Positions 758-14,769 of a DNA stretch of 14,769 nucleotides are shown one piece after another (the first letter of the stretch is position 1; each line of letters begins with the position of its first letter). Source of the stretch: Methanosarcinaceae archaeon (GTDB taxonomy: Archaea; Halobacteriota; Methanosarcinia; Methanosarcinales; Methanosarcinaceae). Below the pieces are notes generated by a model that saw nothing but the letters and a program-made list of their open reading frames with translations, did no database searches and was not told where the DNA came from. The stretch lies in contig DQIO01000290.1 in the NCBI GenBank assembly GCA_020793555.1, positions 1 to 14,769 on the forward strand, given 5' to 3'. The position numbers and the translations under genes are program-made.

Positions 758-954
758 ATCAACATCTCCAAATACGAAACCCGTATTGAATCCCCCTGTC
801 CAATACCCAGTTTCTCCATAAACGCAAACACGCGCGCCCTGTGAAGTTCCACATCCGATTCCGACTCCACTATAGTCTCAACTTCAATGAACTCTCCAAG
901 CCCATCAACCGAATCAAGACATATTGTAAAGTTTTCGAACTCAAAGACCGCGCG
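758..954 (-). pseudogene. Partial copy of the CYTH gene 3' end
   Basis: These 197 bases match 3215-3411, inside the CYTH gene, in the same orientation with no gaps and 7 mismatches (about 96% identity). Read in the CYTH frame the piece encodes the last third of the protein (RAVFEFENF through SYLEMLI) with no internal stop. It then diverges to GE and a stop instead of the intact gene's DMLKK ending. Upstream of the block the frame is lost: a 2-base gap and weak residual similarity reach to about 970. Five of the seven differences are synonymous and two are not (Met to Ile, Gly to Ala), a pattern made in a functional gene rather than in a decaying fragment. It has no start codon of its own and is unlikely to be translated. 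Together with the intact gene it brackets the ATPase-nuclease cassette. Confidence 0.93.
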
Positions 955-1112
955 TTTTCCTGACCACTCCCTACTATATTTTCTGCAATTAGTAATGGTG
1001 GTGGTCGTTTAAATCGTTGTTTCGCCCATGGTACTATTTGAAAATATATTAATAGAGTATCACTAAATTGAATGGCGGTTGTCAACGATATTAACGACAT
1101 TTCAATATTTAC

Positions 1113-1175: not shown

Positions 1176-1670
1176 TTATACTAAACCACGTATGAAAGTA
1201 TCAAAGCCTTTTTTAGCTATATGGGGTTTTAATCCTTTATCAGAGAGTAGTTTCATCAATGGTTTTACATTTTTTACAACAGAACTTCTTTTGTGAGTCA
1301 TAATAAAGGCTCCCCACTTAGCATCCTGAAATAGTCCATTCTTTTTCAAATTTTTATTGAATATTTCATAAGTATTCAATAATTGTTGAACAGCATGATG
1401 AGAGTCTTTCCCCTTTAATTCAACTAAACAAATTGCCTTTTTCGGTTCATTTGACGCATGGTTCAAGTGATAAATTAACAAATCACAAATTGTTTCTCCT
1501 GTATCAGAAATCCCCATATATTTATTGAATTGTTGCTTATTTTTATCGGAATCAGTGTTGAAAAAAAGAAATGTTTCATCACTGTTTGGTTTTATTGATA
1601 CGTTCACCCCACTTTCATTATAACTTGTGCCATGATGAAGGCAATTTGCGAGTAAAAGGTTAAATGGCAT
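1176..1670 (-). CDS. Putative PD-(D/E)XK nuclease, partner of the ATPase
   Basis: This 164-residue protein is not one I can name. Its central part has the layout of a restriction-endonuclease fold: D63 in ICDLLIYHL, then about 20 residues later a strand ICLVELKGKD carrying E84 and K86 (the E-x-K motif), then a helix HHAVQQLL with Q95/Q96. That D...ExK...Q order is typical of PD-(D/E)XK nucleases. There is no signal peptide or membrane segment. The start is the ATG at 1670: AGGTGA lies 4 bases before it (TTTG spacer) and overlaps the TAG stop of the ATPase gene, so the two are probably translationally coupled. A TTG directly before the ATG would add one residue and is less likely. Base composition is AT-rich, like the ATPase and unlike the operon to the right. 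The context suggests an effector of an ATPase-nuclease defence system. Nuclease assignment is inference from the motif pattern. Confidence 0.6.
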   Translation of the reverse strand: MPFNLLLANCLHHGTSYNESGVNVSIKPNSDETFLFFNTDSDKNKQQFNKYMGISDTGETICDLLIYHLNHASNEPKKAICLVELKGKDSHHAVQQLLNTYEIFNKNLKKNGLFQDAKWGAFIMTHKRSSVVKNVKPLMKLLSDKGLKPHIAKKGFDTFIRGLV

Positions 1671-1678
1671 CAAATCAC

Positions 1679-3082
1679 CTACAAGTCATAATAGAGATTA
1701 GATACATATTCGGATATATTGCCAAATGTATCCCAGTCAACAAAACCATCTTCATCGAGTATATCTTTCACAGAATTGTTGTCAAAAAGATATGTTGATA
1801 CTTTGTCAGAACCTATGAAACATAAATCATTCTTCAATTTAAACTTCTCTTCTAAATTATTCTTTCCGGCATTTTTGAGTTCACACGCTTTGGTTAAATT
1901 TGAAATGTGGTCTACTAAATAAGGACTGTGTGTGGTTGCAATTACATTCAGACCAGAATTTACCATCATAGCCAAAAGTTCCATAATTTTGATTTGAGCT
2001 TCAGGATGCAAATTCATTTCAGGTTCATCTATCACAACTAAATCTCTTTCCTCTGCCGCATATCTTAGATAAAGCACTAGTGGAATTAAATCTTTTATAC
2101 CTGATGAAACGGGTGAAATGTCAAAAACATTTGTATCATTTTTAAGTTTAAATACAATTTCTACAGATTTATCTGGTTTTTCAACCGTTTCAACTCCACC
2201 AAGAAGAATATCATTCTCTAATATATTAGCTAATTCCATATATCTCTTGATCTTAGAGTTCTTCTTTGCTAATTCTTTACGGTGAATCTGATTTTTAGAA
2301 TCAAAAGCACTCGTGATAGTAGAGATCAAACTACTTACCAACACAGATGCACGATATTTATCATCATTTTCATTTGAAGTTATATCTTTTGACATTACAT
2401 TCTCTTCTTTAGTAATTTGAAATGCAGAGAAAAATTGCACAATACCTGTTCTTTCAGCGGGGAAAAAATAAGTGTCATCGTAATACATCCGATTAATAAT
2501 CATGAAAATAAAAGAAGAGATATTATGACTAATGAGGTTTCGGGGCATGTCCTGTATTTCTTTACTTGATCTGGTAAACACATATACATAAGGATCATTC
2601 TTTTGGGCATACACTTTTAAAAGTGCTTCCCCATCTTCATTTTCGCCTATTGTCCTATCAGCAGAGAATTTATTAATATATGATAAATGATTTTCGCGTT
2701 TAAACTCAACATTTATATTTAAATCGTCGAATGAAATCAACTGACTGCCTAAAAATTCCGGCATGTATTTTGGCATAAGACGAGCAATATTCGAGAAATA
2801 TTCATTGGCATATTTTTCAATGAAACTGTTCATGTCAATTTTTGCATTTCCATTAACTAATACACTTTGGATAGCATCTTCGATAAGATCATAACGTTCA
2901 GTTAGTTCACCTTCTGAATATGCACGCGAATAATGATTCCACATATTTGGATGAAACAGACATGCTATCAACGTAGCAGTCCAAGTTTTACCAGTACCAT
3001 TCGGACCTACAAATATTGTAAGAGGTTTTGTTTCAATTTCACATTCGTCAATAGGTCCAAAATTTTCAATTTTAATTTTCAT
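1679..3082 (-). CDS. ABC/OLD-like AAA ATPase of a two-gene accessory cassette
   Basis: A 467-residue ATPase of the RecF/SMC-like ABC type (AAA_15/AAA_21 group). Visible motifs: Walker A GPNGTGKT at 26-33, an FPAERTGI motif at 207-214, the signature-like SSGIKDLIPL at about 326-335, Walker B DLVVIDEPEMNLHP at 347-360, and the switch histidine in TTHSPYL at 383-389. The N-terminal IKIENFGPI opening is typical of this group. The region between Walker A and the signature is the expected place for a helical insertion. No TOPRIM nuclease domain is evident at the C-terminus, unlike full OLD nucleases. A catalytic partner follows 8 bases downstream. Related ATPases drive phage-defence systems such as OLD, Septu, PARIS and Gabija, but the pair here does not match any of them that I recognise. 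The cassette lies between two copies of the CYTH tail, is AT-rich and is probably horizontally acquired. Confidence 0.85.
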   Translation of the reverse strand: MKIKIENFGPIDECEIETKPLTIFVGPNGTGKTWTATLIACLFHPNMWNHYSRAYSEGELTERYDLIEDAIQSVLVNGNAKIDMNSFIEKYANEYFSNIARLMPKYMPEFLGSQLISFDDLNINVEFKRENHLSYINKFSADRTIGENEDGEALLKVYAQKNDPYVYVFTRSSKEIQDMPRNLISHNISSFIFMIINRMYYDDTYFFPAERTGIVQFFSAFQITKEENVMSKDITSNENDDKYRASVLVSSLISTITSAFDSKNQIHRKELAKKNSKIKRYMELANILENDILLGGVETVEKPDKSVEIVFKLKNDTNVFDISPVSSGIKDLIPLVLYLRYAAEERDLVVIDEPEMNLHPEAQIKIMELLAMMVNSGLNVIATTHSPYLVDHISNLTKACELKNAGKNNLEEKFKLKNDLCFIGSDKVSTYLFDNNSVKDILDEDGFVDWDTFGNISEYVSNLYYDL

Positions 3083-3195: not shown

Positions 3196-3729
3196 TTACT
3201 TTTTAAGCATATCAATCAACATCTCCAAATACGAAACCCGTATTGAATCCCCCTGTCCAATCCCCAGTTTCTCCATAAACCCGAACACGCGCGCCCTGTG
3301 AAGTTCCACGTCCGATTCCGACTCCACCATAGTCTCAACTTCAATGAACTCTCCAAGCCCATCAACCGAGTCAAGACATATTGTAAAATTTTCGAACTCA
3401 AAGACCGCGCGTGTTTTTTTGACAACACCAGATTCTACAAAACCAAGTGAAAGCAGGATATTGCGCATGATCGTAGCATCAACATCTGTTTCGAACTCCT
3501 CGCGTGTTTTGGAAACGGCATCAAGTTTCTTGCCTTTGTAGGTAAGAACCGCGCGACCGTTGACTATGCGTATCCGTAGCGCCTCGTCAGTAATTGAAAA
3601 ATCACGGTGCGGGGCATTATAATAAGTATCACAATGGTGCTCCACACCAATTGCACGCGCGCCCAACCCCGTGATCAGTTCACCTATCCGCTCATGGTCG
3701 GCGCGCGCTTTAACTTCTATTTCTATCAT
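3196..3729 (-). CDS. CYTH-domain protein (class IV adenylate cyclase/CyaB-like)
   Basis: A 177-residue protein with the CYTH fold signature: ExExK at residues 3-7 (EIEVK), a basic strand LRIRI, LTYKGK, a REEFET strand, FEFENF and FIEVE. The alternating charged residues line the tunnel that binds triphosphates and metal in this superfamily. Archaeal members are annotated as CyaB-type class IV adenylate cyclases, but CYTH proteins also act on inorganic triphosphate or other phosphorylated substrates, so the reaction is not settled. The ATG at 3729 directly follows the DUF35 stop codon (TAGATG) with no clear ribosome binding site, implying coupled translation as the last gene of the operon. Bases 3215-3411 are duplicated at 758-954. 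The final six codons lie outside the repeat and differ from those after the copy, so the present C-terminus may have come in with the inserted cassette. Confidence 0.85.
   Translation of the reverse strand: MIEIEVKARADHERIGELITGLGARAIGVEHHCDTYYNAPHRDFSITDEALRIRIVNGRAVLTYKGKKLDAVSKTREEFETDVDATIMRNILLSLGFVESGVVKKTRAVFEFENFTICLDSVDGLGEFIEVETMVESESDVELHRARVFGFMEKLGIGQGDSIRVSYLEMLIDMLKK
3215..3411 (-). repeat. Direct repeat, copy inside the intact CYTH gene
   Basis: This is the partner of 758-954, same orientation, 190 of 197 bases identical, no gaps, constant offset of 2457 bases. The interval between the copies holds only the ATPase-nuclease cassette and its flanks. The repeat is long enough for homologous recombination, which would excise the cassette as a circle and leave one CYTH gene ending in GE-stop. 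Confidence 0.93.
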
Positions 3730-4119
3730 CTATGCAGGGATGAACTTGGTACCATAATATATCATACCCCTATCGCTATCCTGTCCGAGTTTTCTGAAAA
3801 CAGATTTAACTCTCATTCCAATCTTCATTTCTTCGGGTTTGCCTATAATCTGGCTTGTAAGACGTGGCCCCTCATCCAATTTTATAATTGCAAGCGCATA
3901 AGGTGTCTGGTGTTCAAACCCTTCGGCTGCCGTATGAATAATGGTATAGGTAACGATTTCCCCCTCACCATTGAACTTGTATGATTCAAGTTCACCATCA
4001 CGCCTGCATGTAGGGCACAGATTTCGTGGTGGATAGTAATACTCGTCACATTCCTTACAATGTGTCCCGATCAGATTGTACCTGTTAACCTGTTTTCTCC
4101 AGAATCTTGGAACTGACAT
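3730..4119 (-). CDS. DUF35 Zn-ribbon/OB-fold protein of the thiolase-HMG-CoA synthase complex
   Basis: A 129-residue protein with an N-terminal rubredoxin-like zinc ribbon (C21-x2-C24 and C35-x2-C38) and a C-terminal OB-fold (about 45-129). This is the DUF35 family. In the methanogen complex described from Methanothermococcus thermolithotrophicus, the DUF35 protein joins acetoacetyl-CoA thiolase to HMG-CoA synthase and provides a shared CoA-binding site that passes the intermediate on. Gene order here supports that role. The start is the ATG at 4119, because AGGTGA sits 5 bases before it. The GTG at 4128, which would add three residues, lies inside that ribosome binding site. The AGGTGA also contains the TGA stop of the thiolase gene. 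Confidence 0.9.
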   Translation of the reverse strand: MSVPRFWRKQVNRYNLIGTHCKECDEYYYPPRNLCPTCRRDGELESYKFNGEGEIVTYTIIHTAAEGFEHQTPYALAIIKLDEGPRLTSQIIGKPEEMKIGMRVKSVFRKLGQDSDRGMIYYGTKFIPA

Positions 4120-4124
4120 TTGTA

Positions 4125-5297
4125 TCACCTGTTCCTCGAAAGAATGTGTATAACAGCCGTTGCACCGGATCCGCCCACATTATGGGTCATCCCGATCTCT
4201 GCACCGTCAACCTGCCGTTTACCTGCCTCGCCGCGCAATTGCTGTGTGATCTCCACAGCCTGCTTGATACCTGTCGCACCTACCGGATGTCCGCATGCTT
4301 TCAGCCCACCTGAAGTATTAACAGGAATCCGTCCGCCAATCGCAGTCTCTCCTTCCGCTGTCACCTTGCCGCCTTCACCTTTCTTTGCAAATCCAAGGTC
4401 TTCGATAGCACATATCTCAGCAATTGTAAAGCAATCATGTACCTCAACAAGATCAATATCTGAGGGTGTAAGTTTTGCCATCTCATATGCTTTTTTCGCT
4501 GCACTAACAGTGGCATCAAGTGTAGTGATGTCACGACGGTCATGCAATGCTATTGTATCGCTTGCCTGTGCACTCGCTTTTATATAAATCGGAGTATCCG
4601 TATATTCATGTGCGATCTCCGCAGGTGCCAGAACAAGTGCTGAAGCACCGTCACTTATCGGAGAACAATCAAAAATGTGTAATGGGTCAGCCACCATAAC
4701 AGATCTCAATACCGCTTCCACACTAATTTTGTTCTTGTACTGGGCAATAGGGTTCATTGAACCGTTAAAGTGATTCTTGACAGCGACCTCTGCGAGTTGC
4801 TCGCTTGTGGTCCCGTACTTATGCATATGCAACTGCGCGATCATTGCATACAAGCCTGGGAACGTCGCACCCATGATGCCTTCCCATTCACGATCAGCCG
4901 CTGCAGCCAGGGCAGTTGATGCGCTTGATGAAGATATATCTGTCATCTTCTCAACACCTGCCGCGACAACGATATCCTCATGTCCTGATGCAACCGCCAG
5001 CATGCCCTGACGAAGTGCCAATCCACCGGAAGCACATGCCGCCTCGACACGTGTTGCCGGTACATGAAGGTTTCTTGCAAGTCCTGAATAATCAGCGATC
5101 AATGCACCCACATGTTCCTGGTCAACGAATTGACCACTGCTCATGTTCCCGACATACATATTGCTGATCTCCTCTCCTGCAACACCTGCGTCTTTGAGTG
5201 CTCCGACACCTGCTTCCACAAAAATGTTCCTAAATGAGCGATCCCACATCTCACCAAAATTTGTGTTCTTTACTCCAATAATTGCTACGTCTCTCAT
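4125..5297 (-). CDS. Acetoacetyl-CoA thiolase (archaeal type)
   Basis: A 390-residue thiolase-fold enzyme that condenses two acetyl-CoA to acetoacetyl-CoA, the first mevalonate-pathway step. Catalytic features are visible: nucleophile C88 in EAACASGG, H287 in VHDCF, and the CGHPVGATG motif (C335, H337) near the C-terminus, followed by the glycine-rich HNVGGSGA. Length and HDCF motif match the archaeal SCP2-like thiolase group that works with DUF35 and HMG-CoA synthase. The condensation is unfavourable on its own, which explains coupling to the synthase. The start is the ATG at 5297 with AGGTG six bases before it; an in-frame GTG at 5306 overlaps that site and is rejected. The gene begins 10 bases after the HMG-CoA synthase stop. 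Confidence 0.93.
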
Positions 5298-5307
5298 GAT
5301 TAACACC

Positions 5308-6357
5308 TTATGCGAGCCTTATTTTTCCTTTATGCTTAGCGTACATTGCATAGTCCATGTATATCGGATCTTTCAACAGGTCTTCCACACTTGGAGCACC
5401 ATTTCTGATCTCCTCAATCCTGTCCGTTACCGTGATGCTGAAAGCATCACCACCCGCACCTGATCCAAAGGCAGTGGCAAATATCCTGTCACCGGGCTGT
5501 GCCATATCGAGTGTTGCTGCAATTCCCATCATGCATGAACCGGAATATGTGTTTCCAAGTCTTGGCACTACCAATCCGGGTGTAATCTGTTCTTTGCTGA
5601 ATCCCAGCATCTTTGCAACACGCGTTGGGAATTTTCCGTTTGGCTGGTGGAAAACCGCGTAATCGTAATCAGCAGGTTTTGTATCGATCTTTTCCATAAG
5701 CCCGTTCGCAGCACTTGTCACATGTTTGAAATAACCGGGTTCACCTGTGAACCGACCACCGTGTTCGGGATACGGCATGCCTTCACGTCTCCAAAAATCA
5801 GGAATATCTGTTGTAAATGAATATGTATCCTCAATGATCGCTGCAAGTTCGGATTTTTTGTTACCTATAAGATATGCAACCCCGCCGGCTGCCGCAGTAT
5901 ATTCAAGTGCATCCCCGGGTGCCCCCTGTGAAACATCTGCGCCTATTGCAAGACCGAGATCGATCATGCCTGAGCCCACAAGACCCATGCATGCCTGAAT
6001 TGCTGCAGTACCTGCCTTACATGCGAATTCAAAATCCGCAGCAGTCATTACAGGAGTGGCACCAACAGCCTCGGCAACGATCGTACTTGTGGGTTTTACA
6101 GCATAAGGATGACTCTCTGATCCCGTGTACACTGCACCGATACGCTGCGCATCAGTGTCACTTCGAATAATCGCAGACCTTGCGGCTTCCACTGCTATGG
6201 TTGCTGTATCCTCATCAAGGTCAGGTACTGATTTTTCGTTAACCATCAGACCTGCTATGAGAATGTCTGCATCATCGCCCCAAACACGGGCGATGTCTTC
6301 TACCTTTATTCTGTATCTTGGAATATAGGCGCCGTATGATACAATACCAACATTCAT
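5308..6357 (-). CDS. Hydroxymethylglutaryl-CoA synthase (archaeal)
   Basis: A 349-residue enzyme that makes HMG-CoA from acetoacetyl-CoA and acetyl-CoA for archaeal lipid synthesis. Catalytic residues can be placed by motif: E81 in TGSESHPYA, nucleophile C113 in FEFACKAGT, and H237 in FHQPNGKFP. The GSCMMGIAA and [11 protein letters not shown] motifs near the C-terminus are typical of the family, and the length fits the archaeal form, which is shorter than the eukaryotic one. The start is the ATG at 6357, five bases after AGGTGA; the GTG at 6366 that would add MKK falls within that ribosome binding site. It follows the HTH regulator by 33 bases and precedes the thiolase by 10, so it is the first enzyme gene of the operon. 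Confidence 0.95.
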
Positions 6358-6390
6358 TTTCTTCACCTATTAATTTATTACTTTCACGGA

Positions 6391-7131
6391 TTATTCAATT
6401 GAATTGTATTTACTGTATTTTTTCAGATTATCTATCAATGTATCAAGGTTCATCGTAGTCGCAAGAAGCGGGATCCGATCGATCTCTGCCAACTTTTTGG
6501 CCATAGGGTCAACTTCCCCGCCGTGCAGTCCGTGAATTATAACAGCACCAGGTTTTAGGTTTGTTACACGGATTGCCACCATCGGGGATTTTCCTGAGGA
6601 CACTCTTGTAAAGATCATTGCACGTTCTGTGCTCCAGCCGTAGAGGTTCTGGAACTCGTGCGATGAGAGTTCAGTGATTGCTTTTTTACTATCGATTACC
6701 GTAAAACCGTACAATGGTTTCTCAATTCCCTTATATACGGTATCAGCCTTGATCAAAGTTGACAATTTTGCGATCTGTATCGGATATGTGTATTCGTATG
6801 TGGTGTATATGGCTTTTGATGTGGTTTCAGTATAAATCATACCTTCGTATGCATGTATCTTTTGACCGCCACGCTCGGAATCGATATCCAATAAGGCTTT
6901 AACGATCTTGCTTACAATCATTGTGCCAGGTGATTTTCGTCTACCGCTTTCGTAATCACTTATAACAGATGGTGATACGGCCAGATAACTGGAGAGGTCG
7001 CTTTGCGCAATCTCAAAGTTCAACCTCCATTTTTTCAGTGCTTCGCCTGGTTTTTCAGACAGCGTTATCTCGCCTGCCATTTTTTCAGACAATCGCTGGC
7101 GAGTACTGTCATGCGACTCGTTACCTGTCAT
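6391..7131 (-). CDS. XRE-type HTH regulator at the head of the mevalonate operon
   Basis: A 246-residue protein with an XRE/HTH_3 DNA-binding domain at about 30-85 (LKKWRLNFEIAQSDLSSYL, then VSPSVISDYESGRRKSPG as recognition helix and wing). A C-terminal domain of about 130 residues contains the stretch PGAVIIHGLHGGEVDPMAKK. I recognise this as an archaeal regulator type often found beside HMG-CoA synthase genes but know no ligand or name for it. As first gene of the operon it may autoregulate it. The start is ambiguous: a 19-base tandem repeat at 7106-7143 places ATGs in three frames, and the one at 7131 is in frame, preceded by AGGTAA. An internal ATG at residue 18 (MAGEITLS) is the main alternative. 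The first ATG, at 7150, would give only MTGNESHDR before a stop. Confidence 0.85.
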   Translation of the reverse strand: MTGNESHDSTRQRLSEKMAGEITLSEKPGEALKKWRLNFEIAQSDLSSYLAVSPSVISDYESGRRKSPGTMIVSKIVKALLDIDSERGGQKIHAYEGMIYTETTSKAIYTTYEYTYPIQIAKLSTLIKADTVYKGIEKPLYGFTVIDSKKAITELSSHEFQNLYGWSTERAMIFTRVSSGKSPMVAIRVTNLKPGAVIIHGLHGGEVDPMAKKLAEIDRIPLLATTMNLDTLIDNLKKYSKYNSIE

Positions 7132-8209: not shown

Positions 8210-9364
8210 GTGTACGTCAAGTTTTTTCGTTGTTTTGGATGCGATGCAACGTATCTGCCAGAAGAAGTGGAATCGCTTCAAATAATGCGATGTGAAAAAT
8301 GTGGCTCTGCGCTTGATGCCGAATATGATTACGAGTCCATCAAAAAAGAGATAATATCCGACAGTTTCAGGCGTGACACACCGACTCATTGGAAATACTG
8401 GCCTTTCCTGCCGGTATCTGATCTGTCATCCCTTGTTACTTTGGGGGAAGGTGCAACACCACTACTTGAGCACCCTGCAATTACCCAAACGATTGGAGCA
8501 GCAGATTTGTATTTCAAGTACGAGGCACAAAACCCAACCGGTTCTTTCAAGGACCGCGGATCGTCCCTTGAAATTACAAAGGCTCTTGAACTTGGAAAAA
8601 ATAAGGTGGTTGTGGCATCCACAGGCAATATGGGCTCTTCAATAGCAGCGTATGCGGCTTTTTCAAACATGGAATGTGTTGTTTTTGTTGCAGATGTCGC
8701 GGCTGATGTAAAAGTTGCACAGATGAGGGCACATGGTGCTGATGTGCGCATGGTTGATGACGATTATTGCATTGCCATGAATGAAGCGGAGAATTACGTT
8801 CGTAATAATAATGATTCGTTCCTGACAGGAGATTATCCATGGAGATGTGAAGGTACGAAAACGGTTGGATTTGAGATACTGGATCAGTTGTATTGGAAAG
8901 TGCCTGATTATGTGATAGCACCGATCGGGAACGGTACACTGCTATGGAGTTTGTATGAGGCGTTCCGGGACATGGTTGGTGTCGGTATGACAGAGCGCAT
9001 TCCGCGTATAATCGGAGTTCAGGCGGAGGGGTGCAATTGTGTTGTACAGGCGTGGGAAGACAGTACACAGTCGATCGAACCTATCGATGACCCAATAACC
9101 GTTGCAACTGCGATCGCCTGCGGAGACCCCATTGATGGTCTCGCTGCACTTAAGGCGATGAGGGAATCGGATGGTCTGGGTGTCAGTGTCAATGATGATG
9201 AGATCCTTGCAGCAAGGAATGAACTTGCAAGACATGGGATACTTGTTGAGCCAAGCGGTGCAGTTTCGTATGCAGGTGCACTTAAGGTAAAAGATGAGCT
9301 CGTCGAGCAGACGGCTGTGTGTATTGCGACGGGGCATGGGTTAAAGGATATGCAGGGGTTTTGA
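8210..9364 (+). CDS. thrC: Threonine synthase
   Basis: A 384-residue PLP enzyme that converts O-phosphohomoserine to threonine and phosphate. The PLP lysine is K114 in NPTGSFKDRG; the phosphate-binding loop STGNMGSS and the GEGATPLL motif are also present. An N-terminal zinc ribbon (C8-x2-C11 and C28-x2-C31) is common in archaeal threonine synthases. Length is near normal for this class. The start is GTG at 8210, with GGAG eight bases before it; the nearby ATG at 8202 is in another frame. A TATA-like TTTTAAACAC lies at about 8153-8162. The gene stands alone between the Cas4-like gene and a toxin-antitoxin pair and appears to be a housekeeping gene. Confidence 0.93.
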   Translation: MYVKFFRCFGCDATYLPEEVESLQIMRCEKCGSALDAEYDYESIKKEIISDSFRRDTPTHWKYWPFLPVSDLSSLVTLGEGATPLLEHPAITQTIGAADLYFKYEAQNPTGSFKDRGSSLEITKALELGKNKVVVASTGNMGSSIAAYAAFSNMECVVFVADVAADVKVAQMRAHGADVRMVDDDYCIAMNEAENYVRNNNDSFLTGDYPWRCEGTKTVGFEILDQLYWKVPDYVIAPIGNGTLLWSLYEAFRDMVGVGMTERIPRIIGVQAEGCNCVVQAWEDSTQSIEPIDDPITVATAIACGDPIDGLAALKAMRESDGLGVSVNDDEILAARNELARHGILVEPSGAVSYAGALKVKDELVEQTAVCIATGHGLKDMQGF

Positions 9365-9410
9365 GTTTAGACGAATTATGTGATATGCGTATTTGCTTGT
9401 TATCAGTTAC

Positions 9411-9420
9411 GTTTAAATAA
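9411..9420 (+). promoter_or_regulatory. TATA box of the RelB/RelE-like pair
   Basis: GTTTAAATAA is centred about 26 bases before the antitoxin ATG at 9442, predicting a leaderless transcript for the pair. Confidence 0.5.
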
Positions 9421-9441
9421 TTTTGAAATAAAGATGATGTT

Positions 9442-9645
9442 ATGCCAGAAATTGATTTTGAAAGAAGAATATTTGATGAACTTGTGCATATCAAGGCTGA
9501 GTTAAGTGAAATTAAAGAGCATATGGTAGATGTCGACACATTTCTCACTGAAGATGAAAGGCATATTGTAAAAGAAAGTTTTGAACACGAAAATGAGGGG
9601 AAATTGATCTCACTTTCGGATTTTAAAAAAGAGATTGGCTTATAG
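9442..9645 (+). CDS. RelB-like antitoxin
   Basis: A 67-residue acidic, mostly helical protein. The C-terminal half (DERHIVKESFEHE then GKLISLSDFKKEIGL) matches the usual archaeal RelB-type ending, which wraps around and blocks the toxin. The N-terminal part (residues 1-38) is a charged helix, probably for dimerisation. It is immediately upstream of a RelE-like toxin, with only one base between its stop codon and the toxin ATG, so the two are translated together. A leaderless start at 9442 is supported by the TATA box position. Confidence 0.8.
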   Translation: MPEIDFERRIFDELVHIKAELSEIKEHMVDVDTFLTEDERHIVKESFEHENEGKLISLSDFKKEIGL

Positions 9646-9646
9646 T

Positions 9647-9904
9647 ATGTTCGTAATTCTTCTTGATCTTCCGGCACAGAAGTTTTTAAGAAAAATTGAT
9701 AAAAAGATCGCTTCCCGAATAGTGGAATCGATCGAGAAACTTGCCGAGGAACCTATCCGTCATGATTCGAAGAGAATTATGGGAAGTAAAGAAAATTTGT
9801 TTAGAATCAGAGTAGGAAAATTCCGTGTGCTTTATAGAGTTGATTATGAAAATAGCCATATTGTTATTACAAAAATCGATTCAAGAGAGCACATTTATAA
9901 TTAA
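9647..9904 (+). CDS. relE: RelE/ParE-superfamily toxin
   Basis: An 85-residue basic protein with the RelE fold pattern: a first strand (FVILLDLPAQKFLRKI), a two-helix region ending EEPIRHDSKRIMG, then the conserved LFRIRVGKFRVLYRVDYEN strands and a final IVITKIDSREHIYN. Arg residues in the RIR-GKFRVLYRV block correspond to those that position mRNA in RelE. Such toxins cleave mRNA in the ribosome. The start is ATG 9647, one base after the antitoxin stop; an in-frame TTG at 9635 is less likely. RelE is favoured over ParE because of the strand motif and the ending, but the target cannot be proven from sequence. Confidence 0.85.
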   Translation: MFVILLDLPAQKFLRKIDKKIASRIVESIEKLAEEPIRHDSKRIMGSKENLFRIRVGKFRVLYRVDYENSHIVITKIDSREHIYN

Positions 9905-10018: not shown

Positions 10019-11920
10019 ATGTCAAAACCTGTTTATCTTGGAGAAATGCTCCTGCACTGGTGCAAGTCCTGCAATGTTCCTGTACTTGGTAAAAAATGCG
10101 ATTGCGGTGCGAAGACAAAGAAAGTGACCGTTACCCCGCCGGGTGATATTCGTCCGGCTTTTGAGTATGATATCAAACATATCAATTCGTTATCTGTGGA
10201 GCAATTCAATGTTCCTCTCATTTCACCGGAACGTTTGGTCGTGATGAACAAAGCTCCTTATGATGACAGGATGGAAGAGATTATCGTTGACGGCGAGGTT
10301 GTTGCAAGTATCAGGTTCGAGATCGATGGGTTAAGATGGGTACTTCTTACAAGGGCTGGCGGAGCACGGCGCATTTTTGACAAGGCGGACAAAAAAGCGA
10401 TGCGAAACTGGGTTGAGATCGATAAGGATGCCATTAGTTTTATCGTGAAAGGCGCAAATGTACTGGCACCCGGAATATCGGATGCCGACCCAGATATTAA
10501 GGAAGGCGACGAGGTTGTTGTGCTTACTCCCGATGGCGAAGCTGTGGCTGCCGGACGCGCACGGATGGATGGTGCGACAATGCTCAAACGCGAGCGAGGT
10601 ATGGCTGTCAAGTGTCGCTGGAGTGAGGCGGCTTGTGATGTTGATATTCCGGAAGGCGGACAGATATGGGACGATGCGGTGGCTGCAAATTCCGCTATTC
10701 TGGATGGGTTCATTGAACGGTCACACAAGTTCATCAGGAATGTCGCGGAAACTACCAATCGACCTGTGACGGTTTCATATTCGGGTGGTAAGGACAGTCT
10801 TGCAACACTCCAACTTGTGAGCGAGTGTATGGATGATTATGAATTGATGTTCGCAGATACCGGACTTGAGTTTCCTGAAACGGTTGAGAATGTGGAGGTT
10901 GCTGCCAAAAGATATGGTCACCCCCTGCATACGATCAGTGTGGGAGATGCGTTCTGGGAATCTGTGGATGATTTTGGACCACCGAGCGTTGAAGTTCGAT
11001 GGTGCTGTAAGGTTTGTAAACTCGGTCCTATTACGCAACTTATTGAGGATAATTACGATAACGGATGCCTGACCTACATTGGTCAGCGCAAGTATGAATC
11101 CACTGCACGGGCTAAGAGTGAGCGGGTGTGGAAGAATCCCTGGGTTGGGAACCAGGTCGGTGCGGCACCGATTCAGGACTGGACTGCGCTGCATGTCTGG
11201 TTGTACATTTTCAGGACAAATGCACCTTATAATCCGCTCTATGAGCAGGGTTTTGACAGGATAGGGTGCTGGCTTTGTCCTTCCTCGTCACTTTCGGATA
11301 TTGTACTACTCAAAGAGACTCATCCCGAGATGGAGAAACGGCTTACTGACTACCTGTACGGATATGCCGAACGCATGGGATTATCAAAAGCGTGGGTAGA
11401 ACACGGGTTCTGGCGCTGGCAGACACTGCCGTCACACATTGCAGCCATTGCGGAGAAAAAAGGCATCAATATTATCCCGAAAAGCGAGGGCAAGGATGTG
11501 CTGACTTTCACGATGACATCGGGATACCAGCCATGTAAGGCTGGTGGCATGTCGGCAGAAGGTGGTTTCGGTACTGCGATAGACCTTGCGCGTCTTGAAG
11601 ATACACAAATGCTGCGCGCTGTCGGTGATGTGTCGTATATGGCCGGTGTGGTCTCTGTTCTGAATGGAGAAGACCGCACGCAGGTGTTTGCATCTGGAAA
11701 TGTGACTGCTCGGAGCGATACGGAAAAGAAAGCGCGCAGGTTGATGCACAGGGTGGAACTGTCCATCCGGCGCGCCCTCAAGTGTCGTGGGTGTGGGGTC
11801 TGTGTTGGAAACTGTCCGAATAATGTAATTGTTATTGAGGATGGGGTTGCTGTTATTGGGGACGGGTGTGTTCATTGCGGGAAGTGCATTGAGGTCTGTC
11901 CGGTTGTGAAATTCGGGTAG
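10019..11920 (+). CDS. PAPS-reductase-like PP-loop protein with Zn-ribbon, PUA and 2[4Fe-4S] ferredoxin domains
   Basis: A 633-residue multidomain protein. In order: zinc ribbon (C15, C18, C27, C29), a linker, a PUA-like domain (about 140-205), an adenylyl-transferring PP-loop domain with SGGKDS at 255-260, Cys motifs WCCKVC (329-333) and GCWLC (417-420), and a C-terminal ferredoxin domain (about 584-633) with two CxxCxxCxxxCP motifs. It belongs to the archaeal branch of the PAPS/APS reductase superfamily. PP-loop domains activate a substrate with ATP, and the PUA domain hints at an RNA substrate, so sulfate-derived reduction and RNA modification are both possible. Family membership is clear; the reaction is not. 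The start at 10019 fits the TATA box. The last 183 bases occur again, diverged, at 13941-14123, and the last 69 at 13256-13324. Confidence 0.88.
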   Translation: MSKPVYLGEMLLHWCKSCNVPVLGKKCDCGAKTKKVTVTPPGDIRPAFEYDIKHINSLSVEQFNVPLISPERLVVMNKAPYDDRMEEIIVDGEVVASIRFEIDGLRWVLLTRAGGARRIFDKADKKAMRNWVEIDKDAISFIVKGANVLAPGISDADPDIKEGDEVVVLTPDGEAVAAGRARMDGATMLKRERGMAVKCRWSEAACDVDIPEGGQIWDDAVAANSAILDGFIERSHKFIRNVAETTNRPVTVSYSGGKDSLATLQLVSECMDDYELMFADTGLEFPETVENVEVAAKRYGHPLHTISVGDAFWESVDDFGPPSVEVRWCCKVCKLGPITQLIEDNYDNGCLTYIGQRKYESTARAKSERVWKNPWVGNQVGAAPIQDWTALHVWLYIFRTNAPYNPLYEQGFDRIGCWLCPSSSLSDIVLLKETHPEMEKRLTDYLYGYAERMGLSKAWVEHGFWRWQTLPSHIAAIAEKKGINIIPKSEGKDVLTFTMTSGYQPCKAGGMSAEGGFGTAIDLARLEDTQMLRAVGDVSYMAGVVSVLNGEDRTQVFASGNVTARSDTEKKARRLMHRVELSIRRALKCRGCGVCVGNCPNNVIVIEDGVAVIGDGCVHCGKCIEVCPVVKFG

Positions 11921-11928
11921 GGCAAAGG

Positions 11929-11943
11929 CTCTTCTTTTTTTTT
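11929..11943 (+). terminator. Oligo-T terminator of the PP-loop/ferredoxin gene
   Basis: Nine consecutive T at 11935-11943 follow CTCTTC, about 15 bases after the stop codon. The same AGCTCTT/AGCTTTC plus T-run follows both tail copies (13333-13345 and 14131-14140), so the terminator is part of the duplicated unit. Confidence 0.6.
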
Positions 11944-11991
11944 GTAGAGTTAAGTTCACATGATAACGTGGTAAAATCCAGATGTACAATT

Positions 11992-13158
11992 TTACTCACT
12001 AATATTTCTCTTGAGCCATATCCTGAACACATTGTCGATTATTCCATATACTCCATCTTTTGACTTTTCAATTGTCATGGTATTTTGGAGATCACTCATT
12101 GATGATGTGAGGGATGATGCAGGTGTTTGCATATCTTTTGCGATATGGCTTAACCGTCTGAATTTTTCTTTGGATAGGTGTTTTAGTACTTTTTTTTGCT
12201 GTTCACTGAATTTGTCAATGTAGCGGGATTCAAACTCACTGTCAAACTCAGCAAGCATAGCACAAAAACTTGCATCAACATCAGCACTCTCAATTTTATT
12301 TTTATTTTCCAGTACTGTGTCCTGATATACCATGAATCCAAGCTTTTGAAAATAAAATGGAAAGCCGCCCGTGATTGTATATATATTGTCCAGTGCCTGA
12401 TCGGATATTTGTATATTTTGTATCCCAAGACGTTGTCTTATATATTTTCCAACATATTCTTCCTTTATCGGTTCAAGCTGCATTTTGGCAGCCATCAGGT
12501 AAAGTGGTGAATCTGGTTTCAAAAACACATCGTGTAAGAGTGATATCGATGAACCGGAAAAAATGTAGCGAACATTTGGTTGGCTGTCCATTCGACTTTT
12601 TAGCACACTAAATATGCTACCATCGAATTTACGTAGTTCTTGAAATTCATCAAAACAGAGTATAATTGGCAGTTGTTTTTCTTTAGAAAAATGATCTATA
12701 AATTCGAATGTTTCTGCTATTAAGTCCTGTTCATTGAGTTCATCATCACGAAATTTGAGGTACATGCCACCAACATGTTCGATACTGCCGCCAATTTCAG
12801 AAAGTGAACCATATGCAGCCGTCATTTTTCCTTTGAATATCTGAGCAAATTTTTTGGATATGCCTTTCATTTTATGTTTTTCTTCATACGCCTCTAATAG
12901 CAGTTTGGTAGTTATCCTGAAAAAATCACTTATGCTTACCATTTCCCTGCAGTTTATAAGTGCAAAGATAACATCATCCTTTACACTTAATTTGAGGTTT
13001 CGAAGAAGTGATGTTTTACCAATTCGGCGTGGACCAATTATCACATTGTTTTGTGCTAACGTTAAAACATCGATTTTAATTTTTTCAATCTCTTCAGTTC
13101 TGCCTATAAAAAAAGGAGGTTCTACTTCGCCACCAACCATGAAGATCTTTTGTATCAT
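11992..13158 (-). CDS. STAND-like archaeal ATPase with C-terminal winged helix
   Basis: A 388-residue protein of the archaeal ATPase group related to AAA_16/Arch_ATPase (STAND NTPases). It opens with PPFFIGRTEEIEKI, has Walker A GPRRIGKTS at 42-50, Walker B IILCFDEFQEL with D170/E171, and sensor 1 YIFSGSS at 198-204. A helical lid follows (EYVGKYIRQRL, then ITGGFPFYFQ near 275-283), and the last 80 residues look like a winged helix. The role of this large archaeal family is mostly unknown; links to defence, mobile elements and regulation are proposed. It is convergent with the upstream PP-loop gene, has its own TATA box for a leaderless start, is AT-rich, and lies between the intact PP-loop/ferredoxin gene and its first tail copy. 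Confidence 0.85.
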   Translation of the reverse strand: MIQKIFMVGGEVEPPFFIGRTEEIEKIKIDVLTLAQNNVIIGPRRIGKTSLLRNLKLSVKDDVIFALINCREMVSISDFFRITTKLLLEAYEEKHKMKGISKKFAQIFKGKMTAAYGSLSEIGGSIEHVGGMYLKFRDDELNEQDLIAETFEFIDHFSKEKQLPIILCFDEFQELRKFDGSIFSVLKSRMDSQPNVRYIFSGSSISLLHDVFLKPDSPLYLMAAKMQLEPIKEEYVGKYIRQRLGIQNIQISDQALDNIYTITGGFPFYFQKLGFMVYQDTVLENKNKIESADVDASFCAMLAEFDSEFESRYIDKFSEQQKKVLKHLSKEKFRRLSHIAKDMQTPASSLTSSMSDLQNTMTIEKSKDGVYGIIDNVFRIWLKRNISE

Positions 13159-13178
13159 AGTTTATAGTTGAAATCGAC

Positions 13179-13190
13179 TATATTTAAAAT
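13179..13190 (-). promoter_or_regulatory. TATA box of the STAND-like ATPase
   Basis: The minus strand reads ATTTTAAATATA, centred about 26 bases before the ATG at 13158, which predicts a leaderless transcript. Confidence 0.55.
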
Positions 13191-13255
13191 TGACTACTAA
13201 TTTAATCGTTGAAACACAATATATCCATATTTGACGATAGGATAAACGACTGATT

Positions 13256-13324
13256 GTTATCGGAAACAGGTGCGTTCATTGCGGGAAGTGTATTGAGGTC
13301 TGTCCGGTTGTGATATTTGGGTAG
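13256..13324 (+). pseudogene. Tail copy 1 of the PP-loop/ferredoxin gene
   Basis: These 69 bases match 11852-11920 without gaps at 61 positions (8 mismatches, about 88%). They encode the second CVHCGKCIEVCP cluster motif and the stop codon, in the same orientation as the parent. Of the 8 changes, 5 are synonymous; three change residues (Asp to Asn, Gly to Arg, Lys to Ile). There is no start codon or upstream gene body, so this is a remnant. The similarity continues beyond the stop through the T-rich terminator. From 13349 to 13388 it also matches the region after tail copy 2 (14149-14188). Confidence 0.88.
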
Positions 13325-13348
13325 GGTGGAAGCTTTCTTTTTTTTGTG

Positions 13349-13388
13349 GATTGAACTAAAAACGATGCGGTAAACGATGCAGGCGGCG
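13349..13388. repeat. Direct repeat shared by the flanks of the two tail copies
   Basis: These 40 bases, beginning GATTGAACTAAAAAC and ending GCAGGCGGCG, match 14149-14188 at 35 positions with an exact offset of 800. The segment after the intact gene (from about 11943) shows only faded similarity (for example GGTAAA). Copies 1 and 2 therefore share more 3' flank with each other than with the parent. Confidence 0.85.
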
Positions 13389-13417
13389 CAGTGTGACAGG
13401 AAGGGAGTAGTTCACAA

Positions 13418-13729
13418 TTACACATACATGATATTCATAGCTTCATTCTCTTTTTGTTTTTGCTCTCTTATCATTTGCCACATCTTTTCTTGTTTCTTTC
13501 GTATCATAATATTTCTTGGTTCATTGTCTATATCATATTGTTCCCGCTTGCTTGGGTCTGATAATACTGAATAAGCCTCTGCGATTTCTTTAAACATTTC
13601 TTCAGCTTCCGGTAACTTGTTTTTGTCGGGATGATGTAGCATAACCAGCCTGCGGTAAGCGGACTTAATATCTTTTTGGGATGCTCTCTTATCAACTTCC
13701 AATATTTCGTAATATATTTTTTTAGCCAT
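13418..13729 (-). CDS. Minimal J-domain (DnaJ-like) protein
   Basis: A 103-residue protein. Residues 1-66 are a complete J-domain: [12 protein letters not shown], helix [14 protein letters not shown], the HPD motif at 33-35, then [24 protein letters not shown]-domains stimulate the ATPase of Hsp70 (DnaK). The remaining 37 residues are a highly charged helix rich in Lys, Glu, Gln and Met, with no Gly/Phe region, zinc fingers or substrate-binding domain, so this is a class III J-protein and not the housekeeping DnaJ. No dnaK or grpE is nearby. The ATG at 13729 has no strong ribosome binding site, and upstream TATA-like sequence is weak (about 13766-13776). It lies alone between tail copies 1 and 2 of the PP-loop/ferredoxin gene, which suggests acquisition as cargo. 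Confidence 0.9.
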
Positions 13730-13925
13730 GGGTTATTGGTATTGCTTTGTTATTGTTCCGGACTCAAAATAATTCAAAACACGCGGTGATACATTCTGAT
13801 GCACAGATTGTGCGGGATTCTATATCTGTTATAGCTAACAGATATTTTCATGTTCTTTAATTTATCTCTAACCTTTAATATACTTAACATATCAGCAAAA
13901 AAATCAGGCGTAATCTTTGTTCTGG
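13730..13925. other. Spacer with a possible protein remnant
   Basis: No confident gene. On the minus strand, a frame from about 13925 to 13774 reads SRTKITPDFFADMLSILKV and continues plausibly to a stop at 13774. It lacks a start codon of its own apart from one inside the ferredoxin copy, so it may be the C-terminal end of a lost protein, or chance. The J-domain gene promoter should also lie here. Confidence 0.3.
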
Positions 13926-14123
13926 ATGAGGGAGGCGTGTAGGTTGATGCACAGGGTTGAATTATCCATTCGGCACGCACTCAAGTGTCGTGGGTGCGGT
14001 GTATGCGTTGAGAAGTGTCCGAATAATGTGATCGCTATTGAGTATGGGGTGGCTGTTATCGGGAACGGGTGTGTCCACTGCGGGCAATGTATAGAGGTCT
14101 GTCCGGTTGTGAAGTTTGGGTAG
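13926..14123 (+). pseudogene. Tail copy 2 of the PP-loop/ferredoxin gene, possibly a stand-alone ferredoxin ORF
   Basis: Bases 13941-14123 match 11738-11920 without gaps: 28 of 183 bases differ (about 85% identity). Of the 25 changed codons, 18 are synonymous. All eight cluster cysteines are intact (CRGCGVCVEKCP and CVHCGQCIEVCP), with no frameshift or early stop. The frame is open from an ATG at 13926, giving 65 residues, and weaker similarity begins near 13931. It could be a remnant of a full-length homologue's 3' end, or a small 2[4Fe-4S] ferredoxin still made from this ATG or from the ATG at 13947, which has GGGAGG upstream. I favour a remnant because no promoter is obvious, but the lack of damage is notable. 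Confidence 0.75.
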
Positions 14124-14148
14124 AGCGAAAGCTCTTTTTTGATTTGTT

Positions 14149-14188
14149 GATTGAACTAAAAACAATGCGACAAACGCCGCAGGCGGCG
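14149..14188. repeat. Direct repeat after tail copy 2
   Basis: Partner of 13349-13388 (35 of 40 bases). It includes CGCCGCAGGCGGCG, a GC-rich inverted repeat, directly followed by a second one, GGCGGATTCCGCC (14185-14197). These two GC-rich palindromes may strengthen termination after the tail copy. Confidence 0.8.
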
Positions 14189-14315: not shown

Positions 14316-14675
14316 TCATTCCCTTCCTTTTTCAATGTCTTCTAAAACCTTTTGAATAAATGGCTTTGTTTCAGGAATATCAACATTCACTGTTTGCCAA
14401 ACAGTTTGCAGATTTACTCCAAAATAATCATGAATTAGAACATCTCGCATTCCTGCGATTTCTCTCCATTGGACATCCGGATATTTGTCCCGAATATCAG
14501 TCGGAATATGTTTTGCGGCTTCCCCTATAATTTCTATGGCTCTTATGACTGCATAAGCAGTCTTTTTGTCACTGATAAAATCATCAAATATCATTCCGTC
14601 AACAAAACTTTCTGCTTCATCCATAGCATCTATAATGTCTTCCAAATAATCCAAAAAATCTCTTTCTTCAGACAT
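14316..14675 (-). CDS. hepT: HepT-like HEPN toxin (RNase)
   Basis: A 119-residue all-helical HEPN protein. The HEPN RNase motif R-x4-H-x-Y is present as R77, H82, Y84 (RDVLIHDY), and [10 protein letters not shown] (about 49-58) is the usual HepT helix before it. HepT proteins cleave RNA and are silenced by the partner MntA, which adds AMP residues to the tyrosine of the motif. The mntA gene lies directly upstream and its stop codon overlaps this start by 8 bases (14668-14675). The start is ATG 14675 with GAGGT five bases before it; a TTG at 14681 would add two residues. It is the outermost accessory gene to the right of tail copy 2. Confidence 0.92.
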
Positions 14676-14769
14676 AAACAACCTCTTTTAGTATCCGCTT
14701 GCCAATTCGAGGTTTTAATGCATTCTTCATTACAAGATCGACTTCAACTCCCAAAAGATCGGAAAGATA
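14668..14769 (-). CDS. mntA: MntA-like nucleotidyltransferase antitoxin (5' part missing)
   Basis: Only the last 33 codons are in the window, read on the minus strand from 14769. They encode [20 protein letters not shown] and end RILKEVVYV before TGA. The VDLV strand with its Asp, followed by the ALKP-x-IGKRIL pattern, is typical of the C-terminal end of minimal nucleotidyltransferases (MntA), where this Asp is one of the metal ligands. The catalytic GSxAxG part should lie just beyond the edge. MntA neutralises HepT by AMPylation. The gene order and overlap are those of the standard HepT-MntA pair. Confidence 0.82.

Follow-up and report, generated by a model that had tools for sequence, protein, structure and literature searches.

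The 3' end of a core archaeal gene recurs twice downstream of the intact gene, separated by AT-rich cargo genes, in the window analysed here, which is the whole of contig DQIO01000290.1 (14,769 nucleotides (nt); contig C275 in our numbering) of the draft assembly GCA_020793555.1 (G000; 334 contigs, 2.56 Mb). The host is an ANME-3-type (anaerobic methanotrophic) member of the Methanosarcinaceae, i.e. a methane-oxidising archaeon. The gene in question encodes a PP-loop (PAPS-reductase-like)/PUA/ferredoxin protein and has orthologs across the family. Comparison of the locus among relatives indicates that the end of this gene may be a landing place for foreign genes, and that the resulting arrays seem to have been reshuffled and partly deleted. 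The explanation we lean towards, with a probability of roughly 0.53, is one-sided, homology-anchored insertion with an illegitimate far end, followed by recombination between the displaced gene ends, which we call tails. The relevant features of the window are the following.

10019..11920, plus strand: intact PP-loop (PAPS-reductase-like)/PUA/ferredoxin gene, the anchor gene (Pfam PAPS_reduct, PUA, Fer4).
11732..11942, plus strand: the anchor gene's own 3' tail with a terminator-like hairpin, taken as the reference copy (repeat search, hairpin scan).
11992..13158, minus strand: cargo ATPase of the archaeal/STAND type, cassette 'A' of the ANME array (Pfam ATPase_2/AAA; GC 36%).
13255..13345, plus strand: tail 2, only the final 70 coding nt, plus a T-run (repeat search, BLAST).
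13418..13729, minus strand: cargo J-domain protein, stand-alone (Pfam DnaJ; GC 35%).
13935..14145, plus strand: tail 3, 189 coding nt in an open frame, with a terminator-like hairpin (repeat search, BLAST, hairpin scan).
14316..14681, minus strand: cargo HepT (Pfam HepT-like).

The initial annotation of this DNA had described three successive, same-direction 3' ends of the PP-loop/ferredoxin gene, and both the repeat search and BLAST confirm them. The repeat search pairs 11732-11942 with 13935-14145 (83%, plus strand) and finds an in-register triple repeat at 11851-11944, 13255-13348 and 14054-14147 (81-83%, all on the plus strand), and the BLAST E-values of 1e-59 for tail 3 and 2e-24 for tail 2 are far beyond chance. 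The coding part of tail 2 (70 nt) is 89% identical to the anchor gene and that of tail 3 (189 nt, stop-free) 84%. A terminator had been proposed after each tail; this holds for the gene and for tail 3, which are followed by terminator-like hairpins at 11919-11932 and 14122-14135 (the scan found five sites against a mean of 2.6 in shuffled sequences), but not for tail 2, which has the T-run and no hairpin passing the scan. Downstream of the anchor gene the order is archaeal-type ATPase, partial tail, J-domain gene, full tail and HepT. Pfam bears out the cargo genes as originally named, except that MntA, beyond HepT, is cut off by the contig end. The cargo has a GC content of 31-36%, against 47-50% for five core genes of the window and 52% for tail 3, and the sequence upstream of tail 3 resembles the MntA promoter region of relatives. 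On the other side of the anchor gene, two genes lie directly upstream at 9442-9904, a small one and one for a ParE-like toxin (Pfam ParE_toxin); a similar ParE-like gene also stands upstream of the PP-loop gene in the related genome G005.

Similar arrays are found in the other ANME-3-type genomes of the genus. Tail matches occur in five of seven genomes (G000, G001, G002, G004 and G005), exactly those with an ortholog of the anchor gene; no ortholog was found in G003 and G006, which are only 73% and 60% complete. In G001 the gene is followed immediately by the J-domain gene, then by a 33-nt tail remnant, ATPase B (an AAA domain together with an Mrr-like nuclease domain), an ortholog of the window ATPase at this different array position, a tail, HepT/MntA, a partial tail, two more genes and purH. 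The array of G002 is presumably split across two contigs, the second of which carries ATPase B, a tail, RhuM, MntA, a deleted tail, the J-domain gene, a short tail and purH. Behind the gene of G005 come MntA, a tail and what remains of a J-domain gene. G004 has the gene on one contig and a tail, with MntA next to it, on another. The cargo modules (J-domain, the two ATPases, HepT/MntA) are therefore common to the arrays of the genus and are permuted in order and number. Some of them are more alike between species than the core gene is: ATPase B matches at 1562/1611 between G001 and G002, above 1507/1696 for the core gene, and MntA at 317/333 between G001 and G004, above 1423/1694. The tail of G004 (G004_T) is 94% identical to the G001 gene and 97% (over 77 nt) to a G001 tail, against 84% to its own gene. 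These similarities point to transfer of some ANME cargo and tails between species. The window ATPase is just slightly more alike between G000 and G001 (1075/1165) than the gene (1509/1685).

The tails of the genus, gene ends and displaced copies taken together, are 77-99% alike pairwise, and share up to ~160 nt past the stop codon (for example G005 5034-5380 with 5807-6153, and repeat D4 of the window). Their 5' boundary is not a single fixed point; the ends are ragged, at -33, -57 and -70 by BLAST and at about -265 and -390 by eye. Position 11732, at which several tails start, was considered as a fixed attachment site and rejected: most tails run upstream of it to about -265, and one to -390 (by eye), and those running past it carry internal deletions at short repeats, so it looks like a deletion joint and not the core of an attachment (att) site. 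Several tails in other genomes of this genus and of the genus g8, described next, differ in length and contain stops, frameshifts or deletions. The initial annotation had asked whether the tails might be independent small ferredoxin genes; fragments of this kind, with differing 5' ends, do not look like such genes, though tail 3 of the window is open. Just 3' of several tails in G001 and G002 (L090-L093) lies a palindrome of ~43 nt (like GAAAAGTATACCAGATGGGATATATCCCATGTGGAATACTTTTC), which could be a terminator or a repeat element, and a similar sequence stands 3' of the gene itself in G004. On another contig of G000 (L096, G000:C135; 2827-2990, minus strand), near a SIR2-domain gene, a piece of the 5' part of purH is joined to 62-65 nt of PP-loop tail, and the fusion looks like a scar of the same process that has moved elsewhere.

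A separate ladder is present in the genus g8, which we take to be Methanohalophilus. Tails stand behind the PP-loop gene in five of its eight genomes, i.e. in five of the six close ones, and two of these (G013 and G026) are single-contig assemblies; no tail was found in G036, nor in the more distant G075 and G078. Secondary loss of the tail in G036 was considered and could not be shown, the g8 trees being poorly supported. The g8 cargo forms three cassettes. Cassette A encodes an ABC transporter ATPase, a radical SAM protein and a periplasmic binding protein (Pfam), with two further genes that by eye look like a permease and a methyltransferase; cassette B encodes a predicted permease and an MMPL protein, and cassette C a C39-like peptidase (Pfam). 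G074 has A and a tail; G013 and G076 have A, tail, B, tail; G077 has A, tail, C, tail and part of B; and G026 has C, then A without an intervening tail, then a tail. In G076, a draft genome, the PP-loop gene itself (L142, 602-2501) is broken by stops, yet tails and cargo are present. Number, order and cargo of the units thus differ among five ANME-3-type genomes and six g8 species, as was to be expected of the ladder of repeated insertions that the initial annotation had proposed. The comparison supports repeated insertion at the same spot, and does not distinguish the addition of a new tail from the displacement of an old one.

In g8, the 14 aligned tails (six of genes, eight displaced) switch to the sequence of the following cassette at one point, two to three codons before the stop codon, and the place of the switch is the same for A, B, C and the flank D, A and B sharing a further ~23 nt beyond it. 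Cassette C adjoins the gene in G026 and a tail in G077 with an identical junction, GTGAAATTT followed by ATTTGA. The end motif carries substitutions in two of the displaced tails, and the C-termini past the switch point differ among species anyway. The g8 tails (gene and displaced) are 67-96% identical pairwise, with 5' ends at -165 to -274. In a tail tree from which the fragment G013_T_B was excluded, three tails preceded by A group together (0.87/0.90), as do two preceded by B (0.999).

The spacing between the gene and purH suggests what the locus looked like before it was occupied. The purH gene lies downstream on the same strand in 33 of 46 gene-bearing loci, some of which may share a genome, and lies outside the downstream DNA covered in the other 13. 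Measured between the ends of tblastn matches, the distance is 59-118 nt in 18 loci, 280-868 nt in four and 6.9-13.9 kb in 11. Since the two genes are near-adjacent in 18 of the 46 loci, the cargo was most likely inserted between them. The 11 long-distance loci comprise five arrays with detected tails, G036, and five others (7-9 kb) without a tail found; these last five (L238-L241 and L251) belong to other Methanosarcinaceae and have a similar-looking gene order. Tails were detected at seven of 43 ortholog loci, namely two of the ANME genus, four of g8 and one in another family (G044; a 66-nt match at 76%), in a count where some tail-negative loci had just 2-6 kb of downstream DNA covered; an eighth tail locus, that of G076, had been overlooked in this count because its gene is broken.

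We propose a mechanism of homology-assisted illegitimate recombination, in which one side of the incoming DNA joins by homology and the other illegitimately, as outlined in PMC2884548 and PMC5361080. Incoming DNA, carrying a copy of the same gene end and unrelated downstream genes, would pair with the resident 3' end; one side would join by homologous recombination, and the other would join illegitimately somewhere within the tail of the resident gene. This would leave the gene intact, followed by AT-rich cargo and a residual piece of tail whose 5' end is ragged. With at least two tails present as direct repeats, the cargo could then be moved, swapped or deleted by ordinary recombination between them. 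We infer, from the compared sequences, both the one-sided nature of the join, with its polarity, and the shuffling from tail to tail. The ragged 5' ends of the tails, the insert ends that resemble gene fragments, the AT-rich cargo, the decayed state of most tails, and the absence of any recombinase match from three array genomes and from the scanned cargo all fit one-sided insertion. The searches for PF00589 and PF00239 gave no match in G000, G004 and G005 (92-94% complete; other recombinase families lay outside the search), and no recombinase was found among 20 scanned array proteins or in the window cargo, several array genes (cl4, cl6, cl16 and cl21 among them) lying outside that scan. The tail repeats are imperfect and variable in length, unlike the short identical att repeats at both ends of an integrative element. 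A bolder version, which we put forward only tentatively and consider somewhat unlikely, is that the loci are recombinase-free cassette arrays in which the core metabolic gene offers its 3' end as an integron-like landing and exchange site: units of cargo and tail would travel between species and join behind any tail, the host gene would stay intact, and homologous recombination would shuffle and purge the array.

Several observations weigh against one-sided insertion. Three tail starts nearly coincide (about -265 in the ANME MntA unit, by eye; -266 in G013; -274 in G077), which random joins would not predict. Across eight genomes, 48 of the 49 open reading frames (ORFs) between the gene and the last tail are antisense to the gene, in a count where the sense ORF and one antisense ORF are tail sequence and many entries are copies of about seven cassettes; RhuM in G002, and the cargo of the CYTH and G056 loci described below, have the opposite orientation. 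PF00589 matches occur in G001, G002 and seven of the eight g8 genomes, and a single PF00239 match in G001. The tail G077_T_C, although preceded by A, groups with the gene of G077 itself and its other tail. The similarity of g8 cassette A between species about equals that of the gene, with no sign of recent transfer, and the order of events is not fixed, given the poor support of the g8 trees. A foreign 3' end on the intact g8 gene was also considered and rejected: in 14 of 15 pairs the 3' part is less identical than the 5' part, but the gap never exceeds 0.039, which leaves no clear donor tract. Neither a donor nor an array in mid-event was found among the genomes compared. The coinciding starts, the antisense bias, the shared g8 junction, the exceptional tail, the PF00589 matches and the missing donor tract keep alive a rival in which a recombinase acting in trans would insert circular cassettes, each made of cargo and a 3'-tail copy that serves as its attachment site. 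Insertion would be at one fixed position, the stop codon or immediately ahead of it, and would give an integron-like or staphylococcal cassette chromosome (SCC)-like array. The single switch point of A, B, C and flank D, the identical junction of C at gene and tail, and the grouping of most tails with the preceding cargo speak for it as well. We nevertheless regard it as unlikely, in view of the imperfect and variable tails, the absence of a recombinase from the scanned cargo and of PF00589/PF00239 matches from three array genomes, the location of the PF00589 matches, which lie at least about 30 kb from the arrays where they share a contig with them at all, and C-terminal residues that vary among species in any case.

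Three further explanations are less likely still. Tandem duplication of the gene end with its downstream DNA, followed by loss of different genes from each copy, would account for the ~160 nt shared by ANME tails beyond the stop codon; it is improbable, as the cargo of successive intervals is AT-rich and unlike from one interval to the next, the core gene is more divergent between species than some ANME cargo and tails, a sign of transfer, and the near-adjacency of the gene and purH in 18 of 46 loci makes it probable that the cargo was absent before. That the tails are functional, as a small ferredoxin, terminator or antisense regulator maintained by selection, is very improbable: tail 3 of the window is open, with nonsynonymous (dN) and synonymous (dS) divergence of 0.052 and 0.85 from its own gene (0.068 and 0.375 from the G001 gene), but divergence of the gene between species likewise gives a low dN/dS, tail 2 retains just 70 coding nt, and tails of other genomes carry stops, frameshifts and deletions. 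An assembly artefact of metagenome binning might be suspected in a window that is one contig among 334; with a similar architecture in four more draft genomes of the genus and in the single-contig genomes G013 and G026, we give it next to no credence.

One-sided insertion has counterparts among known systems. According to PMC5361080, orphan immunity arrays of the type VI secretion system (T6SS) arise by successive insertions behind a conserved region, with displaced 3' ends or genes strung downstream; homology-facilitated illegitimate recombination is proposed there, with no evidence for an integrase, and the same logic is mentioned for Rhs. As in those arrays, displaced partial 3' ends lie downstream of an intact gene in the same direction here, with variable and unrelated cargo between them across relatives. 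Unlike the polymorphic 3' regions of the toxin genes described there, the 3' end is conserved in our case, its end motif being the same apart from substitutions, and the anchor is a core archaeal gene to which the cargo is unrelated. Homology-facilitated illegitimate recombination is described for competent bacteria, whereas here it is deduced from a comparison of archaeal genomes and would have been repeated at one gene. Integrons, including archaeal ones (PMC9668308), likewise array unrelated cassettes at one place and reorder them between relatives; the present arrays differ in that three of their genomes gave no tyrosine recombinase match and that what is repeated is part of a protein-coding gene. 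A search of titles and abstract openings in the open literature returned no archaeal description of such tail ladders. The class of mechanism is known in bacteria for polymorphic toxins; the novelty lies in its occurrence, in two genera, at a core gene of archaea whose 3' end is conserved. The C-terminal displacement of Rhs was reportedly described by Jackson in 2009. SCC elements, which integrate in the 3' end of rlmH, also use a gene end as insertion point and accrete in tandem; here, in contrast, no recombinase was found in the cargo checked, and long imperfect tail copies take the place of short att repeats. Our results suggest a route by which archaea may acquire genes of defence-type, toxin-antitoxin and transport function, and rearrange them, at a constant site where insertion does no harm and with no integrase in the cargo. 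Such hotspots could be recognised in genomes by a simple signature, a core gene trailed by short copies of its own 3' end, and in the related genomes gathered here gain, loss and shuffling could be measured directly.

The window holds a second case of this kind, at a CYTH gene, with the following features.

3196..3729, minus strand: CYTH gene, second anchor in the window (Pfam CYTH).
1679..3082, minus strand: cargo ATPase resembling PADLOC PD-T4-4_A (profile match, E 8.5e-57; GC 32%).
1176..1673, minus strand: cargo partner protein, with no Pfam or PADLOC match at E<=0.001.
758..958, minus strand: partial 3' copy of the CYTH gene, 201 nt at 96%, its frame ending in LIGE*.

The same CYTH cassette is present in G001, mostly at 95-100% identity per 60 nt with one lower-identity stretch; it starts there exactly where a CYTH gene ends, at the stop codon, the identity of that gene being ~87%. 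It is followed in G001 by an antiporter-type gene (Kef type by eye), with no tail seen, and the ~50 nt before the CYTH tail of G000 resemble the end of this antiporter-type gene. The LIGE* ending, common with G002 (LIGK* in G004), was considered as proof that the distal CYTH copy is the native one and rejected, the genes of G001 and G005 ending otherwise; it is only suggestive of a native distal copy.

Paralogs of the PP-loop gene have tails at one of 21 loci, in a count to which the positive genome, G056 of another family, was added after a match, and in which L234 had just 2 nt of downstream DNA; the G056 paralog has two downstream 3' copies of about 770 and 376 nt (90-91%), and a 3' copy of another gene is present in that locus too. 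A possible further 3'-end duplication in G056 (L108, G056:C3; reverse-complement 5917-6537 and 9267-9689) consists of a flavodoxin/FMN-reductase-type gene (by eye) and a copy of its 3' part, about 140 residues long, that lies downstream of a gene of 659 residues. On contig C310 of G000 (L162), 1029-1520 with 3551-3657 and 3377-4615 with 2127-2447 are reciprocal 3'/5' partial copies of two genes, possibly a small rearranged duplication. In sampled stretches, same-strand 3'-end matches were found for four of 204 ORFs in G000, three of 361 in G013 and 11 of 333 in G008, along with one opposite-strand 3'-end match (in G008) and two, zero and four 5'-end matches, respectively; the window itself has three same-strand matches among 14 ORFs, having been chosen for them. 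Many of the matches in the sampled stretches are neighbouring pairs of similar ORFs, and by our reading about four look like orphan tails. On these counts, the PP-loop locus looks like a hotspot and not like one instance of a common process.

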